Source of the DNA: Nitrosospira sp. Nl5
GTDB taxonomy: Bacteria; Pseudomonadota; Gammaproteobacteria; Burkholderiales; Nitrosomonadaceae
Length of the DNA: 64,000 bases
Assembly: GCF_900102495.1 (NCBI RefSeq)
Contig: NZ_FMVQ01000004.1
Location: forward strand, 62,001 to 126,000
Direction of reading: 5' to 3'
The notes beneath the pieces were generated by a model, which ran no database searches, was not told the origin of the DNA, and was given only the letters and a program-made list of their open reading frames with translations. Shown here piece after piece: positions 26,096 to 63,465 of this stretch (its first letter is position 1; the number at the start of each line of letters is the position of its first letter). A program made the translations under genes and the position numbers.

Positions 26096-26893
26096 TCAGA
26101 CTTCACGCCCGAATATCCCTCCAAGGATTCGCCTGTCGATATGTTTGTCAAGATAGGCAGCACCAAACCCACCGTAGAGTTCCTTCTTCGTAACATCGAG
26201 TTCCAATTCCTTAGCCGCCAGTATTTTACGGGTAGAAGGGCGCTCGCACATGGCATCGTAAAACGTCTGTAACGCCGGATCGTCTCGAAACAGATGCATC
26301 TCGGGTATTTCGAACAGTTCGGAAAACATTTGGCTAAGCTCGAGCGTGTAGAACAACTGGAAATCCGGCAGAAAAGGCTCTTTGCCAAGCAGGAACGGCT
26401 CCATTCTCGAGCCATTCACCAGCCGGGGCAGCCACATTTTGCTTAGCAAGACAGAACAAAGATTATAGATATGGGCTTCTTTTTCAATTTTGAGTTTCCA
26501 TGCTTTTGGAAAATATGCGCTGACAACAAACCAGTTGAAGAATGGACCCGCTATGGAGAAAGTGATGAAGTCATTCTTGGCATCGACCTCTGCACAGCGC
26601 ATCGGATCATCAATCGGATAAAACTTTCGTGCTTCCGGATAGATTCTCGCGAGATAACGACAGATTGCGTGACTTTCTGAAATATCAACGCCATTGACAT
26701 CCGTGAGAGTGGGAATTTTCCCAAGAGGATTTCGTTCTATGTGCTCTGGCGTGAGCGTGCTCCCCTGAAACGGAGACACGCGTTCATAACGATAAGGTAG
26801 ACCGGTTTCCGAGAGGAAGTGCGCGACCTGGCTCATATAAGGTGAGAGCCAGAATCCGTACAGCGTGCGCTCGACATTTGATTGATCGTACAT
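26096..26893 (-). CDS. glutathione S-transferase family protein
   Basis: A 265-residue protein with the thioredoxin-fold N-terminal GST domain: TLYGFWLSPYMSQVAHFLSE, then NPLGKIPTL (the cis-Pro loop) and ISESHAICRYLA, the usual Glu-Ser pair that grips the gamma-glutamyl group. An all-helical C-terminal domain follows. The start at 26893 has AGGAATT about 6 bases upstream; an earlier ATG six codons before lacks one. It lies on the same strand as, and downstream of, the HxlR-type regulator, with 168 bases between. This hints at regulation by that protein. Substrate unknown. The glutathione genes at 30.7 kb make a redox role reasonable but unproven. Confidence 0.8.
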   Translation of the reverse strand: MYDQSNVERTLYGFWLSPYMSQVAHFLSETGLPYRYERVSPFQGSTLTPEHIERNPLGKIPTLTDVNGVDISESHAICRYLARIYPEARKFYPIDDPMRCAEVDAKNDFITFSIAGPFFNWFVVSAYFPKAWKLKIEKEAHIYNLCSVLLSKMWLPRLVNGSRMEPFLLGKEPFLPDFQLFYTLELSQMFSELFEIPEMHLFRDDPALQTFYDAMCERPSTRKILAAKELELDVTKKELYGGFGAAYLDKHIDRRILGGIFGREV

Positions 26894-27061
26894 GGAGAAT
26901 TCCTTTTGCATTGCAGTTTAATTGTTAAGTAGGTGCAATATTAGAGGCATGGTACTGATGTGCCCTGGTAATAGTGCCAAGAGCATTTCAGTAAAGTTCA
27001 GTTAAAAATTAACTTTCATCTCTCTCACAGCCTTGATTTCCTTTTGCATCATCCAATCCCG

Positions 27062-27496
27062 CTATTCTTTATTCGCTTCATTCTCTTTACGTAGAGATAA
27101 TCGTATTTCCCCCATGAATTCCACCGGGTCCTGCTCAAATCGTTGAACCAGATTCTCGTGTACATTACTTTCAGGAACATATTTTGCACCCCAACGTACC
27201 AGCTCCATGATTGGAGGCGCCAGATCCACGCATTTTTCAGTAGGCATATAAATAATCTTGCGCGCATTAGCCGGATCGCGGCGTCGCAAAAGGAGGTGGC
27301 ATTCCTCCAGTTTTTTCAGGCGATCAGAAAGGGTATTGGTAGCGATTTTTTCCGGGGAATTTTGAAAATCCCCGAAGTATCGCTTACGAAAGAAAATGAG
27401 ATCACGAACGACAAGCAGCGTCCATTTGTCGCCCAATATGTCCAGAGCGCAACTGACTGGACAGGAGGAACGGCTGATCTGGTTTGATTTCGTCAT
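27062..27496 (-). CDS. HxlR-family transcriptional regulator
   Basis: A 144-residue winged-helix protein with the HxlR hallmark CPVSCALDILGDKWTLLVVR near residue 12, then FGDFQNSPEKIATNTLSDRL (recognition helix) and a Lys/Arg-rich wing. The Cys pair near residues 12 and 16 could serve as a redox or electrophile sensor, as in some HxlR members. The start at 27496 (MTKSNQ) removes an unlikely 60-residue extension; its ribosome site is weak. It is followed on the same strand by the GST gene, its most likely target. It lies 137 bases downstream of the AmoD-like gene, also on the same strand. Confidence 0.85.
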   Translation of the reverse strand: MTKSNQISRSSCPVSCALDILGDKWTLLVVRDLIFFRKRYFGDFQNSPEKIATNTLSDRLKKLEECHLLLRRRDPANARKIIYMPTEKCVDLAPPIMELVRWGAKYVPESNVHENLVQRFEQDPVEFMGEIRLSLRKENEANKE

Positions 27497-27633
27497 AACT
27501 TCGCGCTGGCCTGCAGATTGACTTGCTTTTTGCAACCAAAGATTATACTTGCATTCTGCAATGAATGTAGGTCCATGAGTGTAATAAAGTAAAGAAGCAC
27601 CCTTCCTACGTTTCGGGTGTTCTCGATGCCGCA

Positions 27634-28221
27634 TTATCCCCGGCGCCTGGAAGCCCGGCGCGTGGAAGCCCGCCAAACCTGTACCCGCTCGGACTTCATT
27701 AGTTTGTAACCAAGCAGGCTAAGCAGCAGCAGTACAACCAACGGACCTATCGCAGCACGAAAAATATTCGCATAGTTGATCATCTGTACGCGCAACGAAT
27801 ACTCATAATGTACCGGAGGGACCGCCTCGCCAGTAATAAATACCGTATATAACCCCTTATCCAGGCTGGTCTCTCCCCTCATTACCCCATCGGGATGATA
27901 ACTCGGACGCAGGTACGCCACCGTCTCATCATCAACCTCGCTGGTTCCCCGTACTACGCGTATCCCTACGGGAATGTCGCGCAACGCCTGATCCGCAAGG
28001 TCTATTACCAATAAAGTATTCCCTTCCCTGGGTATATCCGTGCAGTATTGGCCGCTGGGTTCATGTTGAGGCTGGTAGGCGCTCAAATGCACCATGCTTT
28101 CATCATCAAGCCGGCGAGTGCATGCGTCTTCCTCCATCGACACCTTACCATGCGCCCCAGCCGCGCCACAGTAAAGCGCTGCAACGACAATAATAGTGGA
28201 CCGTATCACTTGCTTGATCAT
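27634..28221 (-). CDS. AmoD/PmoD-like periplasmic copper protein, membrane anchored
   Basis: A 195-residue protein: signal peptide (residues 1-23), periplasmic domain, and a C-terminal transmembrane helix (residues about 155-175) ending in an Arg-rich tail. Cleavage after AGA would leave His24 as the new N-terminus, as in some copper proteins. Met29, Cys34, Met43, His45 and Cys60 cluster in VSMEEDACTRRL, SMVHL and QYCTDIP. This recalls the Met/Cys CuA-like site of the PmoD/AmoD family found near methane and ammonia monooxygenase genes. The start was chosen for AAGGAG six bases upstream; a longer frame from 28284 has none. It follows amoC behind a strong hairpin. The family assignment is from memory, not a search. 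Confidence 0.65.
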   Translation of the reverse strand: MIKQVIRSTIIVVAALYCGAAGAHGKVSMEEDACTRRLDDESMVHLSAYQPQHEPSGQYCTDIPREGNTLLVIDLADQALRDIPVGIRVVRGTSEVDDETVAYLRPSYHPDGVMRGETSLDKGLYTVFITGEAVPPVHYEYSLRVQMINYANIFRAAIGPLVVLLLLSLLGYKLMKSERVQVWRASTRRASRRRG

Positions 28222-28294
28222 TTGATTGCTCCTTGATGTATGGTTCAACTGATCTTCGTTATCCTCTGCGTGCTGTTTTACCATGACTTATTGC

Positions 28295-28334
28295 AAATCG
28301 CCCCGTCCTCTGTAATGCGGGAGCGGGGCGATTT
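28295..28334 (-). terminator. hairpin between amoC and the amoD-like gene
   Basis: A perfect 11-bp stem (AAATCGCCCCG pairing with CGGGGCGATTT) with an 18-base loop lies 38 bases past the amoC stop. On the transcribed strand it ends in GATTTGCAATAAG, a weak U-run. It could be a partial terminator or a processing/stability stem setting less AmoD-like than AmoC expression. Confidence 0.7.
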
Positions 28335-28371
28335 AGGCTTCAGGCCACTGCTCGGATTCCTCAGCTAGCCA

Positions 28372-29187
28372 TTACGGTACGATCCGGTTGTTGAGAATGG
28401 TTCTGCTCTGGCCATTCCAGACGACGTCGGTCAGGTTGGAGTAGCGGGTGACGATCTGTGCCACAACACCGCCGGCAAACAGGCCTGACCAGCCCAGTAC
28501 CACAAAGCCCCAGTGCAGCGGTGCGCTGAAGAGCTCTTCCATGAACCAGAAAGCATGGCCCCATTCGTTCAAGCCTACGTTCGGCAGGATCATGAGCGGA
28601 CCGGCAATGGCCATGACCAGCGGGAACGAGGTGCCCCGAGCGTACAGCGGCAGACGCGTCATGGCATACAGATAGGTGGCCACGCCGCAGACGATGTACA
28701 TCGGGAAGGAGCCATAGAACACCACCACGTGACTAGGGGTGAAGCTCGTGTCACGAATAATGACCTGGTGCCAGGAGGCATCCTGCTCGGTAAAGAAGCT
28801 GCCGCCCCAGTAAACACCGAACAGATAGACGCCCAGCCACATCATAAAATAGAAGTAGCGCTTGATCTCAAGCTTGGGATCAAGCTTGTCCAACTGCTCC
28901 TTCGTGTCCCGGGTCTTCCAGATCCAGCCCCAGGTGATCAGGGCAAACAGCGGCATCACCGTCATGTGCACCCGCCACAGCCCCATCCAGACTTTCTCGA
29001 ATTCAGGTTCCATTGAGTCCATGCCGTGCGAATAGGCAAAGGTGCGTTGATACCAGATCCAGAATATCGCCACCGCCAGCATCGTGATCAGCCCAAATTT
29101 GTACCACTTCGAGTCGTACCACAGGGACATGTCGTAGTCCCGACCTTCCGACTTCGCCGGGCTCGCCGTATTTAGTGTTGTTGCCAT
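28372..29187 (-). CDS. amoC: ammonia monooxygenase subunit C (stand-alone copy)
   Basis: A 271-residue integral membrane protein, very close to canonical Nitrosospira AmoC as recalled. The copper-site ligands known from PmoC are all present: Asp136, His140, His153 (Dx3Hx12H) and Asn207, His211, His225 (Nx3Hx13H). Hydrophobic segments near residues 32-50, 76-90, 112-128, 155-175, 188-205 and 225-245 give the expected topology. A strong ribosome site (AAAGGAG) precedes the ATG. No amoA or amoB follows. Stand-alone amoC copies are known in ammonia oxidisers, and one in Nitrosomonas europaea is linked to stress recovery. Upstream, on the same strand, is the AmoC-like mini-gene. Confidence 0.95.
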
Positions 29188-29304
29188 ATTTCAATACTCC
29201 TTTAGATTAATTACCCGCTACTGTTTGGGTGGATTGAACTTGGTCTCCATAAATATCAAAATGGGGATAAGTCGTTACATCATTCACCCTTGCAAAATGC
29301 TTCG

Positions 29305-29460
29305 TCAGGCAAAGATTTGAAACCCACTCCAGAGTACTGCTATTCCCAGAAGACCAAGCACGCCAAACTTGTACATCTTTGATTCGTGCAATGACGCCAT
29401 GCTGGAAGCACGAACACCTGCTTGCGGATAGCTCCGCAGCCTTCGATGTTTTGTTGCCAT
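29305..29460 (-). CDS. 51-residue AmoC N-terminus-like mini-protein
   Basis: A 51-codon frame upstream of amoC on the same strand. The leader (CTAAAAGGAGTACCGAA) and first codons (MAT) nearly repeat those of amoC (CTAAAGGAGTATTGAAAT, MAT). Residues about 20-51 (SMASLHESKMYKFGVLGLLG and a short Trp-containing hydrophobic tail ending FQIFA) align with AmoC residues 19-51 ([20 protein letters not shown]). This is the first transmembrane helix plus its preceding cytosolic segment. It ends at TGA where AmoC continues into its periplasmic loop. It may be a functional single-helix protein or the preserved stub of a lost amoC copy. The intact frame, the ribosome site and the non-identical sequence favour selection. 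Confidence 0.75.
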   Translation of the reverse strand: MATKHRRLRSYPQAGVRASSMASLHESKMYKFGVLGLLGIAVLWSGFQIFA

Positions 29461-29538
29461 TTCGGTACTCCTTTTAGTTAACTGACTACCACTTCTTCCT
29501 GTAGGGGAACTTCTTGCTAACGCAATTACCAGGTATTA

Positions 29539-29630
29539 TGCTTGCAATAAGCAAGTGGTCAGAGTATAGACCTGGAGACGAACAGGCGTGTAGTCTGCTA
29601 AATCAGTTATCAGAGTTCTATTTTTGAAAC
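29539..29630. repeat. 92-bp inverted repeat, left arm (control region facing mini-amoC)
   Basis: Matches the reverse complement of 30614-30705 at 87 of 92 bases with no gaps. Its outer end carries the palindrome CTTGCAATAAGCAAG (29541-29555), preceded on the minus strand by TATACT (29563-29568), a good -10 box directed toward the mini-amoC and amoC genes. Its inner end (TATTTTTGAAAC) abuts the lysR start. Confidence 0.95.
29541..29555 (-). promoter_or_regulatory. palindromic operator at the mini-amoC/amoC promoter
   Basis: CTTGCTTATTGCAAG on the minus strand is a 5-5-5 palindrome and also fits the LysR T-N11-A consensus. It starts 7 bases downstream of TATACT, so a regulator bound here would cover the transcription start. 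The identical site lies before gshA. LysR binding is inferred from position and symmetry. Confidence 0.55.
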
Positions 29631-29644
29631 GATGGGTAGCCCCT

Positions 29645-30550
29645 ATGCAAGACCTGAATGACCTCTACTACTACGTCCAGGCCGTGGATCATGGCGGCTT
29701 TGCTCCGGCAGGCCGGGTCCTCGGCATGCCGAAATCGAAGCTTAGCCGCCGCATCGCCAAGCTGGAAGAGCGTTTGGGTGTGCGCTTGATCCAGCGCTCG
29801 ACACGTCACTTTGCAGTTACCGATGCCGGCGAGACTTATTACATGCATTGCAAGGCGATGCTGGTGGAAGCTGAGGGGGCCCAGGAAGCAATAGACACGC
29901 TAACAGCCGAACCGCGGGGTGTAATCCGGATGACATGCCCCATACCGCTGGTGAATGCTTATGTGGGAGTGATGCTGGCCGATTTCATGGTGCGCTATCC
30001 GCACGTCACAGTGCAGATGGAGGCGACCAACCGGCGTGTCGATCTGGTCAGCGAGTCGGTCGACGTCGCCCTTCGTGTGCGACCACCGCCCTTGCAGGAC
30101 AGTAACCTGGTTATGCGTGTTTTGGCTGATCGAGGCCAATGTTTGGTAGCCAGCCCTGCCCTTGTCCAGCGGCTCGGTTTTCCTGCTGCACCGACTGCTT
30201 TGAGCAACTGGCCTAGCCTGGGCCTGGGAAACCTGCAACAAATCCATACCTGGGTGCTGCATGGGCCAGATGACGCACATGCAACACTTCATCATACGCC
30301 GCGCTTTGTGACGACGGACATGATCGCGCTAAGAGATTCCGCTGTGGCCGGTGTCGGTGTAGTGCAACTGCCGGAGGTCATGGCACGAGATCAACTTGCG
30401 GCTGGTTCATTGCTTAGGCTGATGCCGGACTGGGCACCGCGGCGCGAAATCATTCATGCGGTGTTTCCGTCCCGGCGCGGTCTTCTGCCATCTGTGCGGG
30501 CGTTAATTGATTTCCTCGCACAGCGTTTCGAGATGCTGCATGAGGACTAG
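29645..30550 (+). CDS. LysR-type transcriptional regulator
   Basis: A 301-residue LTTR: winged HTH at residues 1-60 (MQDLNDLYYYVQAVDHGGFA, then SRRIAKLEERLGVRLIQRST) and a periplasmic-binding-like effector domain from about 90 to 295 (GVIRMTCPIPLVNAYVGVML, DVALRVRPPPLQDSNLV). The ATG at 29645 is preferred to a TTG seven codons upstream because family members begin at MQDLN. The gene is enclosed by two 92-bp inverted repeats, each with an outward -10 box and the same palindrome. It could therefore control amoC on one side and gshA on the other from identical sites. The effector is unknown. It resembles LTTRs often paired with quinone or thiol enzymes, a weak clue. Confidence 0.9.
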   Translation: MQDLNDLYYYVQAVDHGGFAPAGRVLGMPKSKLSRRIAKLEERLGVRLIQRSTRHFAVTDAGETYYMHCKAMLVEAEGAQEAIDTLTAEPRGVIRMTCPIPLVNAYVGVMLADFMVRYPHVTVQMEATNRRVDLVSESVDVALRVRPPPLQDSNLVMRVLADRGQCLVASPALVQRLGFPAAPTALSNWPSLGLGNLQQIHTWVLHGPDDAHATLHHTPRFVTTDMIALRDSAVAGVGVVQLPEVMARDQLAAGSLLRLMPDWAPRREIIHAVFPSRRGLLPSVRALIDFLAQRFEMLHED

Positions 30551-30613
30551 GCTAACTAAGAGCGCTATCGGAACTTGCGCAAAGAATCCATCTCTGCCAC
30601 TGCGCCCCTCATA

Positions 30614-30705
30614 GTTTCAAAAATAGGACTCTGATAACTGATTTTGCAGACTACACGCCTGTCCGTCTCCAGGTCTATACTCATACCACTTGCTTATTGC
30701 AAGCA
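30614..30705. repeat. 92-bp inverted repeat, right arm (control region facing gshA)
   Basis: Reverse-complement partner of 29539-29630 (five substitutions, no gaps). It begins 64 bases after the lysR stop and ends 14 bases before the gshA ATG, so it forms essentially the whole gshA promoter. It carries TATACT at 30676-30681 and the CTTGCTTATTGCAAG palindrome at 30689-30703, followed by the GGAGG ribosome site. Confidence 0.95.
30689..30703 (+). promoter_or_regulatory. palindromic operator at the gshA promoter
   Basis: Same 15-base palindrome as at 29541-29555, here lying 7 bases after the -10 box and 7 bases before GGAGG. Occupation would block initiation or the ribosome site, suggesting repression, although LTTRs can activate from related sites. 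Confidence 0.55.
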
Positions 30706-30719
30706 ATATCGGAGGATAA

Positions 30720-32366
30720 ATGTCAAGTCAATTATCTTGTAGCGAGCACGCAACACCCATCAACAAATCTCTTCAGCCGTTATTAATTCATGGCTTGAAA
30801 GGCATCGAAAAAGAAAGCCTCCGAATTAACCGGGATGGATCAATATCATTGTCACCTCATCCGGTTCAGCTTGGAGCCGCGTTGACTCATCCGAATATCA
30901 CAACTGATTATTCTGAAGCCTTACTTGAGTTGATCACGCCAGCATTATCGGATGGAACGGAAGTGCTGCATTCCTTGATGGACCTCCATAAATATGTCTG
31001 CGCAAATATCAATGACGAATTATTGCTGGCGGCCAGTATGCCTGTCGGCGATTTGCGCGACCCGGCAATTCCCATCGCCGAATATGGTTTATCCAATCTC
31101 GGGAGGATGAAGCACATCTACCGGCAGGGTTTAAGCTATCGCTACGGCCGCTGCATGCAGGTCATCGCCGGAATCCATTTCAACTACTCGCTTCCTGAAC
31201 AATTCTGGCCCGAATACCAACAGTTCGTGAAACATACGGGTGATCTGCAATCGTTCACCACCGGCGCTTATATGGGAATGATCAGAAATCTGCAGCGTTA
31301 TGGCTGGCTTATCCTGTATTTATTCGGCTCATCCCCGGCAGTGGGCAAAAGCTTCATCGATAGCCGCAACTCTGTTTATTCCGATACTTTGCAGAATTTT
31401 GATGAGCATTCCTACTACAAGCCCTTTGCCACCTCTTTGAGGATGAGCGAGATAGGCTATTTGAATCCCGTTCAATCGATGGTTCATATTTCCTTTAACA
31501 GTATTGAAGAATATATACGGGATTTGGGCAGCGCAACAACGATACCTTATCTCGGATATGAAAGGATCGGGGCAAAGGTAGGCGACCAGTACCAGCAGTT
31601 GAATACTCATTTCCTGCAGATAGAGAACGAATATTACACTTCGGTGCGGCCAAAACAGCCCACGAGGCCCGCCGAGAGGCCGCTGCAGGCACTGGGAAGC
31701 CGGGGGATCCAATATATTGAAATACGAACCGTGGATGTTGATGTGTTTGAACCTGCCGGCATTGCGATCGAAACCACGCGCTTTCTTGAAGTGCTCAGCC
31801 TTTTCTGTCTATTCCAGACCAATGCGGGGCATGACTTGAAGCAGCATGACGAGACCAGCAATAACGCATTGTCGGTGGCCAATCGCGGCAGGGATCCGAG
31901 ACTGAAGCTGCTGGACAACGGGCATGAAGTCCCGCTGCGGCAGTGGGCCCTGACGCTGTGTGAGCAGATGCGGGAGATCTGTGAGATCCTGGATAACGGC
32001 AATACCGATATTCCCTACACCCGCGCATTGCACCAGCAGATCGAAACAATTCGCCATCCCGAGTTGACGGCTTCAGCAAGGGTGCTGTCGGCCATGCGCG
32101 CGCAAAAGATGTCCATTACCGAACTGGTATTGCAGAAGTCCCGTGAATACACTCGTTATTTCCAGAATGCCGCATTGGACGCGGCGGTAAAGAGGAATTT
32201 TGATCTCCAGGTCAAGGCATCGCTGGCGCAACAGAAACAGCTCGAGGCCACGGCTGAGGTCCCTTTCGATCAATACCTTAGCAACTATTTCTCGCAAGAC
32301 GCCTTAGGCAGCATCATTCAATCCCAAAACTTGCCTGTCTCCATGGTCGAAACTGCCGCTCGATGA
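30720..32366 (+). CDS. gshA: glutamate-cysteine ligase, proteobacterial type 1
   Basis: A 548-residue enzyme joining glutamate and cysteine, the first step of glutathione synthesis. Family blocks are GLKGIEKESLRINRDGSISL near residue 26, ITTDYSEALLELITP near 60, IAGIHFNYSLPEQFW near 143 and SRGIQYIEIRTVDVDVFEP near 330. The last two hold the metal and substrate Glu/His residues of the E. coli-type enzyme. Length is slightly above the usual 510-530. A perfect GGAGG precedes the ATG and the promoter is the right inverted-repeat arm. Its stop overlaps the next start by four bases, making it the first gene of a coupled four-gene operon. Confidence 0.93.
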   Translation: MSSQLSCSEHATPINKSLQPLLIHGLKGIEKESLRINRDGSISLSPHPVQLGAALTHPNITTDYSEALLELITPALSDGTEVLHSLMDLHKYVCANINDELLLAASMPVGDLRDPAIPIAEYGLSNLGRMKHIYRQGLSYRYGRCMQVIAGIHFNYSLPEQFWPEYQQFVKHTGDLQSFTTGAYMGMIRNLQRYGWLILYLFGSSPAVGKSFIDSRNSVYSDTLQNFDEHSYYKPFATSLRMSEIGYLNPVQSMVHISFNSIEEYIRDLGSATTIPYLGYERIGAKVGDQYQQLNTHFLQIENEYYTSVRPKQPTRPAERPLQALGSRGIQYIEIRTVDVDVFEPAGIAIETTRFLEVLSLFCLFQTNAGHDLKQHDETSNNALSVANRGRDPRLKLLDNGHEVPLRQWALTLCEQMREICEILDNGNTDIPYTRALHQQIETIRHPELTASARVLSAMRAQKMSITELVLQKSREYTRYFQNAALDAAVKRNFDLQVKASLAQQKQLEATAEVPFDQYLSNYFSQDALGSIIQSQNLPVSMVETAAR

Positions 32367-61086: not shown

Positions 61087-63465
61087 TTAAACACGTGGCG
61101 GGTCTATTTCCCTCTCGAAATGGCGGTGCGCGGCAATGGCCTCGACAAATTGGGGCAGAATAGTGTCAACATCCTCATCCTCAAAATAAAGCACTCCCGG
61201 ATCAGGCTGGCCGGACGGCAATGTCAGCTTCACGCCCGCTTTCTCGACCACCTCCTTGCCGGCCCCGAGCACCAGGATGGGTTTGCAATGGCGATATTGC
61301 TCCCTGATGAATTCTGTCGCGTGTCCCAGGGTGGCGAGATCCGCCACATCGGCATGCCCGCCGGGAACCACCAGCGCGTCAAAAAGCACGGCGGGCATGG
61401 CTTCAAAGGTAACGTCGACCTCGATTTGATCGCCGTCCGTGCTTTCCACCGTCCCCAGCCGGACACCTACAAGACGCGGCACGGCTCCCTCCCCGGCCAA
61501 GCCTGCCTGCAGAGCCTTTAAAGCCGCTCCACTTATGCCATCGGCGACCAGGATGGCAATGCGCCGCATGCGGATGCTGCCATCGCCAGGACGGGCAAAA
61601 AGGGAAAGCGCCGGAGATGCAGCCACCTCCGGCACAACCGGTTGTTGGAGCGCTTTCGGTTGAGCGGGCGGCACGGCTCTCATCCCAAGGCCCAGCGCGA
61701 CGCCTTGTGCGAGATCCTCCGCCACGTTTACCAGCATCGACACCACCCGTTCACGTATCGCGGGCGTCTGCACTCGCGTCAGTTCAAAACGGAAGGCGCG
61801 GATGATATGCGCTTTCTCGGTCGGTGTCTGGCTGTTCCAGAACAGGGTAGCCTGCGTGTAATGGTCCGCAAAACGCTCCGGTTTCCCCCGCACCTTATCC
61901 CCGGTTACGGGCTGCGGAAACGAGGTAAAGCCAGCCGTGCCGCCCTGGAATGGGCAACCTCCCGCCAGGGAGTTTGGCTCATAGGCAACACGACCGCGAT
62001 TGATTGCCTGGCGATGCATGCCGTCACGCTGGTTGTTGTGCGTTTGCGCCACCGGCGAATTGATGGGAATCTCGTGGAAGTTGGGCCCGCCAAGCCTTGA
62101 TATCTGGGTATCCACATATGAATGGATGCGGCCGGCCAACAGCGGGTCATTGCTGAAATCCAGTCCCGGAACAATATGCGCGGCACAGAAAGCAACCTGC
62201 TCCGTTTCGGCAAAGAAATTGTCGGGGTTGCGATCGAGGACCATTTTGCCCACGGGGATGACAGGCACCAGTTCTTCCGGCACGATTTTCGTGGCATCCA
62301 GTATGTCGAAGCTGAATGCTTCGGCCTGGGCTTCGGTAAAGATCTGCATGCCCAGTTCGTACTCCGGGTAAGCGCCGCATTCGATCGCTTCCCACAAGTC
62401 GCGGCGATGGAAGTCGGGATCGGCTCCGGCAATTTTCACCGCCTCGTCCCAGTCCAGCGAATGGGTTCCGGCAAACGGCCGCCAGTGGAATTTGACAAAT
62501 TGCGAGTCGCCATCGGCTGTCACCAGCCTGAAAGTGTTCACACCGAAACCCTGCATCATGCGAAAACTACGTGGAATACCGCGGTCCGAAAACACCCACA
62601 TCAGCATATGGGTTGATTCCGGCATCAGGGAGACAAAATCCCAAAAGGTATCGTGGGCGGTTGAAGCCTGCGGAATGGCGAAATGCGGCTCGGGCTTGGC
62701 GGCATGCACAAGGTCGGGGAATTTCATCGCATCCTGAATAAAGAAAACGGGAATGTTATTTCCCACAAGATCCCAATTGCCTTCGTCCGTATAGAATTTA
62801 ACGGCGAAGCCACGTGCATCGCGCGCTGTGTCGGCCGAACCGCGCTCGCCAAATACAGTGGAGAATCGCACGAAAACCGGCGTCCGCTTCCCGGCTTCGG
62901 CGAACAGGGACGCCCGTGTATATTTTGCCATTGACGCGTAACATTCGAAGTAGCCATGCGCGGCCGACCCCCGCGCGTGCACGACACGCTCGGGGATGCG
63001 CTCATGATCGAAATGCGTGATCTTTTCGCGCAGGATAAAGTCTTCCAGCAAGGCCGGACCGCGAAGTCCCACTTTTAGCGAATTCTGATTATCGCCGACA
63101 GGGACTCCCTGATTAGTCGTGAGCACCCGGTCGCTCGAATCCGCCCTCACCCTGTCGAGCGACTCGTTGCCTGGATTAAAACCAGGCTGAGGCTCACCGG
63201 CACCGGCCTTTTCGGAAGCGATGGTCTCGGTTAGCGTGCTGCCCAGGACGAAGGGATCAGGCGGCTCCACCGTCTGACCTTTTTCCGGACAGGCAGAAAC
63301 CTCCCCGTGCTCAGCCGCCTTATTGGCGTTATAGGGCATCCCCGCGGCAAGCTCCTGGGTTGCGGCGAGCTTGGCGGTAAATTCATTGGCTGGCGTTCCC
63401 TCCTGGTGGGCGGGACCGCCAATGGTTGAGCGATTGTCATCGCCATTTTCTTTATCTGTCGGCAT
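61087..63465 (-). CDS. katE: large-subunit monofunctional catalase (HPII/KatE type)
   Basis: A 792-residue haem catalase of the long clade, with an N-terminal extension and a C-terminal class I amidotransferase-like domain (from about residue 640: [20 protein letters not shown]). Core motifs are [17 protein letters not shown] (active His), [20 protein letters not shown], and the haem-Tyr segment [18 protein letters not shown]. It disproportionates hydrogen peroxide in the cytosol. The ribosome site is GAGGAATT. A stationary-phase or stress promoter would be usual for the type but none was assigned. The next minus-strand gene follows closely. Confidence 0.95.

Follow-up and report, generated by a model that had tools for sequence, protein, structure and literature searches.

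Nitrification begins with ammonia monooxygenase (AMO), an enzyme about whose assembly and repair little is understood. Betaproteobacterial ammonia oxidisers carry singleton amoC genes, amoC3 of Nitrosomonas europaea among them. It has been proposed that the singleton AmoC stabilises AMO under stress (PMC4940428, citing Berube and Stahl 2012), and three amoC singletons are reported for N. briensis C-128 (PMC4964001). The 64,000-nucleotide stretch of Nitrosospira sp. Nl5 analysed here (positions 62,001 to 126,000 of contig NZ_FMVQ01000004.1, hereafter the window) contains an amoC that belongs to these singletons and, ahead of it, a gene of 51 codons (hereafter the small gene) whose product resembles only the first helix of AmoC. 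The small gene is itself not an amoC, and the passages of the singleton literature concerned with these genes mention neither a LysR-type operator nor a preceding gene. Rather than a fresh duplication, it is probably the gene of a functional micropeptide tied to the linked amoC.

The amoR gene of Nitrosococcus oceani, which we take to be small, heads the catalytic operon, whereas the small gene heads a singleton amoC; the two are compared by description only. In the account of the N. oceani amo cluster, amoR is the first-named gene, unique to that species and unannotated (PMC3772326). AmoX, AmoY and AmoZ, which accompany AMO in archaea and are unique to them, are small membrane proteins of mainly helical structure (PMC10030591). 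The product of the small gene is, like these, a small helical membrane protein as far as prediction goes, but a paralogue of helix 1 of the bacterial AmoC. It is a lineage-specific variant of the small membrane accessory peptides, notable because it is paralogous to an enzyme subunit, with one helix only; the open-licence literature yielded no described gene of this kind and no partial-subunit micropeptide of a copper membrane monooxygenase, which is weak evidence of absence. A one-helix AmoC paralogue that stands beside a spare amoC, and that decays where this amoC has been deleted, provides a concrete handle on AMO assembly: the gene connects a singleton amoC with a named regulator, and its product could be tagged as a small probe of the assembly process.

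The small gene occupies positions 29305..29460 on the minus strand and runs from ATG to TGA, encoding the 51-residue product MATKHRRLRSYPQAGVRASSMASLHESKMYKFGVLGLLGIAVLWSGFQIFA. A strong Shine-Dalgarno sequence (AAAAGGAGT, 29467..29475, minus strand) lies a few bases before the ATG, and the stop codon is followed after 117 nt by the start of the linked amoC (28372..29187, minus strand), a singleton gene of 271 codons. AlphaFold, run on a shallow alignment of seven rows, modelled the peptide as a single helix over residues 15-50, with a pLDDT of 92 over residues 31-40 and a mean of 70.3, and glycines at residues 33, 36 and 39 form a GxxGxxG ridge on this helix. Over the first 21 scored codons the net charge is +3 to +5, so that, by the positive-inside rule, under which a net positive N-terminal end predicts an N-in topology, the peptide looks like one N-in membrane helix. 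A conserved short frame, a ribosome site and a transmembrane helix, the hallmarks of a membrane micropeptide, thus come together here: frame and site in all seven amoC-bearing loci, the helix in the AlphaFold model and in the hydropathy.

In a profile alignment (hhalign, with a query profile of seven rows, one of them from a locus that has lost amoC), residues 17-48 of the small peptide aligned with AmoC residues 16-47 at 38% identity over 32 columns, with a probability of 89% and an E value of 2.3e-6. The lead-in and helix 1, with the SKxYKFG motif, and the MAT start are common to the two proteins, while the remaining helices of the AmoC/PmoC family (PF04896) have no counterpart in the small peptide; conversely, the GxxGxxG face of the peptide is lacking in AmoC helix 1. 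When the 51-residue protein was searched against its own genome (E<=10), only the protein itself and the adjoining amoC (E 0.0012) were reported. It matched no Pfam or NCBIfam family at E 0.01, PF04896 included, and does not reach the family cut-off of PF04896 or NF041641, which describe the full-length multi-helix subunit; the linked AmoC scores 431 bits against a cut-off of 26.7, with PF04896 covering residues 13-255. Judged by the profile alignment, the likeness of the small gene to AmoC at the protein level exceeds chance. An earlier note on this DNA, made from its letters alone, had described a cleanly terminated 51-codon frame encoding only the first helix of AmoC, and both parts of that description are borne out.

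The same note had also spoken of a copied leader. The resemblance is real: a 23-nt direct repeat links the leaders of amoC (29188-29210) and of the small gene (29459-29481), ungapped and 78% identical, though short two-copy families of this sort are often due to chance, as the repeat finder itself cautions. By eye, both leaders read (T/A)AAAGGAGT..GAA..ATGGCAAC, and the Shine-Dalgarno sequence of amoC (TAAAGGAGT, 29196..29204, minus strand) lies within the repeat. The likeness is nevertheless short and partly explained by the Shine-Dalgarno core alone. An AAAGGAG core is present also in the leaders of divergent singleton amoC genes. The pattern AAAGGAGTA..GAA was absent from the 25 other amoC leaders of the same genus that were examined; these take forms such as CAGGAGGAAAC and GAGGAGATAAAG, the nearest being CAAGGAGTAATCAAA, in two of the 25.

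The distribution of the small gene was assessed in 125 Nitrosomonadaceae genomes, of which 23 belong to the window's genus, 85 to a second genus, and 8 and 9 to two others. Ten of these were found to carry homologous DNA, always behind the same LysR regulator. Five carriers belong to the window's genus, namely the window's own genome (G000), G094, G110 (Nitrosovibrio sp. Nv6), G113 (Nitrosospira sp. Nsp11) and G114 (Nitrosovibrio sp. Nv4, with two loci), and five to the second genus, namely G081 (Nitrosomonas sp. Nm34), G065 (a Nitrosomonas metagenome-assembled genome), G027 (Nitrosomonas sp. Nm84), G089 (N. supralitoralis) and G090. We infer that G094 is N. briensis C-128 and that, by position, the amoC of its locus is among the three singletons of that strain; in G097 the locus is absent. 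None of the frames ahead of 39 other amoC loci that passed a hydropathy or ribosome-site filter resembled the small gene, and the idea that it generally accompanies single amoC genes does not hold. Viral contigs yielded no relatives, and in the 17 plasmid records that match the region the query ranges cover only its amoC or LysR part. Beyond the family, no relative was found at E 0.001 in 300 genomes of the order, nine of those listed belonging to the family; the gene itself aside, this search matched frames the size of amoC and a single frame close to the end of a contig.

The locus occurs in three states. In the first, seen at seven loci in six genomes, the small gene is followed by amoC and an amoE-like gene and, at six of the seven, by an HxlR regulator gene and a glutathione S-transferase (GST) gene; the second Nv4 copy ends within the amoE-like gene. 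In the second state, found in four Nitrosomonas genomes, the block from amoC to HxlR has been deleted and the small gene is left as an orphan: the stretch after it runs to ATTTATGGA(G/T)AA and then joins the GST leader. In the third (G034, G024, G076 and G043), the LysR and GST genes stand back to back and both the small gene and amoC are absent. On a midpoint-rooted tree of the LysR protein, the four orphans form one clade (87/85) that is nested, with moderate support, among amoC-bearing genomes, and for this reason loss of amoC appears the likelier direction in the orphan clade. One further genome, G085, falls within the orphan clade on this tree, though its contig begins at the LysR gene and its state cannot be scored. 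In Nv4, the two locus copies (contigs C2 and C3; L069 and L068) have small genes identical in DNA, and the C2 copy has an interrupted LysR frame and a truncated amoE-like gene.

The fate of the small gene follows these states. The frame and its ribosome site are intact at all seven loci with the amoC unit, where the Shine-Dalgarno sequences align, and the frame is intact in each of the five genomes with an intact linked amoC. No insertion or deletion was found in its 153 nt across six genomes, while the flanking stretches do contain such changes, and the spacing to amoC is 117-129 nt in five genomes (G081 contributes only its small-gene and promoter rows to these comparisons). All four orphans, in contrast, share a +1 insertion and have glycines 36 and 39 of the helix changed to D and R. 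Three of the four frames are broken; in G065 the frame was reopened by a -1 deletion, but the ribosome site has been deleted, and in G090 the ATG is kept while the second codon is changed and insertions break the frame. Stops and frameshifts in homologues had been named beforehand as evidence against a gene: these occur in three of the four orphan copies, which have lost amoC, and at none of the seven amoC-bearing loci.

Purifying selection was assessed by the ratio of nonsynonymous to synonymous substitution rates (dN/dS) in the five genomes with an intact amoC, leaving out Nm34 with its dead amoC, the second Nv4 copy, whose DNA is identical, and the four orphans. The ratio was 0.33 (p 0.002) on the tree first assumed, and 0.31 on both the LysR topology (p 0.0009) and a star tree (p 0.0008); over all trees tried it lay between 0.31 and 0.43 (p 0.0008-0.03). 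In fits to ten sequences, branches without an intact amoC gave 1.03-1.18. Stops, frameshifts and a dN/dS near 1, as expected of a pseudogene, are found in the orphan clade and not at the amoC-bearing loci. In 20,000 runs of a neutral simulation with the observed number of base changes, as few amino-acid changes arose in 0.15%, and the start, the frame and the helix hydropathy were all kept in five sequences in 0.7%. The signal of purifying selection is consistent but modest. The earlier note had argued for a kept gene over a fresh duplication, and in this it was right: the frame is intact in five genomes out of five, and it is relaxed or broken where amoC is gone.

The earlier note had not taken in how narrowly the gene is distributed, nor the amoE-like and GST genes and the LysR-type operator, which in some genomes is shared with gshA. 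A gene for a LysR-type regulator of the PRK14997 family (29645..30550, plus strand) is divergent from the small gene, and is followed by gshA, encoding glutamate-cysteine ligase (30720..32366, plus strand; identified by family search). On either side of the LysR gene lies one arm of a 96-nt inverted repeat (94% complementary): the left arm (29539..29634, minus strand) presumably serves the small gene-amoC unit as promoter and operator region, and the right arm (30610..30705, plus strand) presumably does so for gshA. Dyads with the pattern TCTGATAACTGATTT(A/T)GCAGA, present in both arms, are of the kind bound by LysR-type regulators. The left one, TCTGATAACTGATTTAGCAGA, is symmetric at 16 of 21 positions (29588..29613 with its flank, minus strand), and the second, ahead of gshA, at 14 of 21 (30631..30656, plus strand). 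A 26-base pattern around the dyad, allowing <=3 mismatches, matched those two sites only in the genome and none in a reversed control. The left dyad, beside the LysR gene, is kept in amoC-bearing loci, and gshA with the second arm is seen also in all four orphans and in G024 and G076.

Elsewhere in the family, relatives of the LysR gene adjoin tautomerase-like and aldehyde dehydrogenase-like genes, or pirin-like and reductase-like genes, these names being read from the sequences with no search behind them. We therefore take the LysR protein to be a probable regulator of the response to electrophile or thiol stress; the amoC unit would have come under its promoter region. The two arms are 79-90% alike within each of eight relatives that have both, and in G076 and G024 the two arms of one genome resemble each other more closely than their left arm resembles the one in G000 (70-71%). 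This likeness suggests gene conversion, or an occasional inversion of the regulator segment.

Taken together, a conserved functional micropeptide is the best reading of the small gene, at about even odds, with a relic of amoC next. Computation supports it in several ways: the frame is intact, its product is homologous to AmoC helix 1, selection is purifying where amoC is intact and gives way to decay where amoC is deleted, and in the window genome and two others the operator region is duplicated ahead of gshA. In its full form, a functional single-pass micropeptide of 51 residues, derived from the amoC 5' end, encoded by the first gene of a LysR-operator unit, inserted N-in and packing on an AMO helix under stress, this reading is as likely to be right as wrong. 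The small gene would have arisen from the 5' end of an amoC gene and would now share, with the singleton amoC and the amoE-like gene, a unit behind the LysR-type operator. On an electrophile or thiol stress signal, the LysR protein may raise expression of the whole unit, from the small gene through amoC to the amoE-like gene, together with gshA in the window genome. The peptide would insert N-in as a single helix, and its GxxGxxG face could pack on a transmembrane helix of AmoC (or of AmoA or AmoB) during AMO assembly or repair, so that it might replace helix 1 or guard its site. The gene order, the dyad and the helix can be seen at the locus; it is induction and packing that we infer, and with them the picture of a stress-linked unit acting on AMO assembly. 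More specific still is a lineage-specific, stress-switched peptide for AMO assembly, that is, an AmoC helix 1 spun off and kept with a spare amoC and an amoE-like copper-protein gene, under a LysR operator that also turns on glutathione synthesis in some species, and serving to rebuild or protect AMO. This version we consider unlikely.

Several observations weigh against a functional micropeptide of this kind. The gshA gene and the second arm accompany just three of the seven amoC-bearing loci (G000, G113 and one Nv4 copy), so the glutathione link is not constant, and this makes the stress-switched version slightly less likely. Promoter-like sites in 27400-30800 are not in excess (three, against 2.7 in shuffled sequence). 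A search of the Protein Data Bank (PDB) with the small peptide gave nothing significant, the best match being a PsbY chain (E 0.23), ahead of the AmoC chains 9cl6 (0.24), 9leg (0.27) and 9pxf (1.1). On the likeliest of the trees tried, dN/dS is 0.43 with p 0.03, weaker than on the first tree, and the constraint is weak beside the 0.045 of amoC and comes from only five informative genomes. Adding Nm34 to the intact set gives 0.47 (p 0.018). In the ten-sequence fits, over 48 codons, the intact class lies at 0.39-0.56 with p 0.01-0.076, the last value when Nm34 is counted as intact, and the contrast in rate between the classes is borderline (p 0.045-0.067, or 0.16 with Nm34 in the intact set). 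As the orphans form one clade, they represent one loss with later damage and not four events. Variable sites number just 4 of 63 in codons 1-21 but 23 of 90 in the remaining codons, so that some of the constraint may act on DNA or RNA. Finally, Nm34 (G081, L067) keeps the small frame and the LysR frame open beside an amoC disrupted by three internal stops, a 6-nt deletion and a frameshift. The tie of the small gene to the linked amoC is hence not strict, or there is room for action on the AmoC of the main operons; with about five lesions in the 816 nt of amoC, however, none in the 153 nt of the small gene is unsurprising (0.9 expected, by our own estimate).

A rival reading is a relic, in which a tandem duplicate of the amoC 5' end was broken and is now in slow decay, carried along with the promoter region ahead of amoC. 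The weak constraint relative to amoC, the presence in just 10 of 125 genomes, the broken fates in relatives, the lack of a family match and a p value of only 0.03 on the likeliest tree all point this way. A decaying copy would nonetheless have had to keep its frame and ribosome site at seven loci out of seven, with no insertions or deletions and a dN/dS of 0.31-0.43, and the neutral simulation gave comparable conservation in 0.7% of runs at most; moreover, a true relic is available for comparison in the orphan clade, and it behaves otherwise. We regard a relic as somewhat unlikely.

The small frame could instead act through its translation, as a leader peptide or translational sensor that sets amoC expression and whose product matters little. 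Its position 117-129 nt ahead of amoC in five genomes, the lack of a terminator between the two genes in the window, the few changes in codons 1-21 and the decay after amoC loss would all fit such a role. However, the frame ends >100 nt before the amoC start, so there is no direct coupling; the RNA over 431 nt is not unusual in structure (z -0.73), which leaves a conserved RNA structure as the thing kept unsupported; and the AmoC-like part is a membrane helix with its hydrophobicity and glycines kept. This makes a regulatory upstream frame quite improbable. An unrelated single-helix peptide with a chance SKxYKFG motif is very improbable, for although only 32 residues align, at 38% identity, with no Pfam or NCBIfam match at E 0.01 and with AmoC chains at E 0.24 or worse in the PDB, behind an unrelated chain, the profile E value is 2e-6, the adjoining amoC is the sole other match reported in the genome, and the leader and the MAT start are shared with amoC.

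Two further sets of short frames were considered and set aside. A wider family of short AmoC-helix genes was rejected, as all 13 candidates fetched (L089-L101) match within ~150 nt of a contig end and are taken as amoC genes cut off by assembly; other short frames near contig ends, among the weak matches listed, were judged by position alone. Tiny membrane frames lying 130-190 nt ahead of divergent singleton amoC genes (26 codons in L142, L144 and L146; 29 codons in L139) were considered as a parallel to the small gene. The 26-residue frame, with a ribosome site (MMKVGKLLALSYF...), occurs in three Nitrosospira genomes, that is, in three of 12 aligned loci, with a similar start in a fourth, and several relatives have a TTTTTGTTCTTAATT-like stretch nearby; a conserved companion gene is not evident from this alignment. 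In G000, other amoC copies were matched only as pieces of 26-30 residues, on contigs C33, C13, C12 and C19, as expected of collapsed amo repeats at contig breaks.

On the minus strand, the genes run in the order small gene, amoC, amoE-like, HxlR and GST-like, with LysR and gshA on the plus strand. The GST-like gene (26096..26911, minus strand) was assigned from synteny and a family search, and the HxlR-family regulator gene (27062..27676, minus strand), given as its longest frame, overlaps the amoE-like frame. The latter (27634..28284, minus strand; a start at 28221 is a guess) is of the AmoE/AmoD/PmoD kind, although its product matched no Pfam or NCBIfam family at E 0.01. The motif given for AmoE is Cx7MxH (PMC6189053), and the amoE-like protein shows by eye C-x8-M-x-H, one residue longer. 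Homologues were found in all four genomes searched, and in G094 two of these, at 71% to the amoE-like gene, are located 3-4 kb after an operon amoC.
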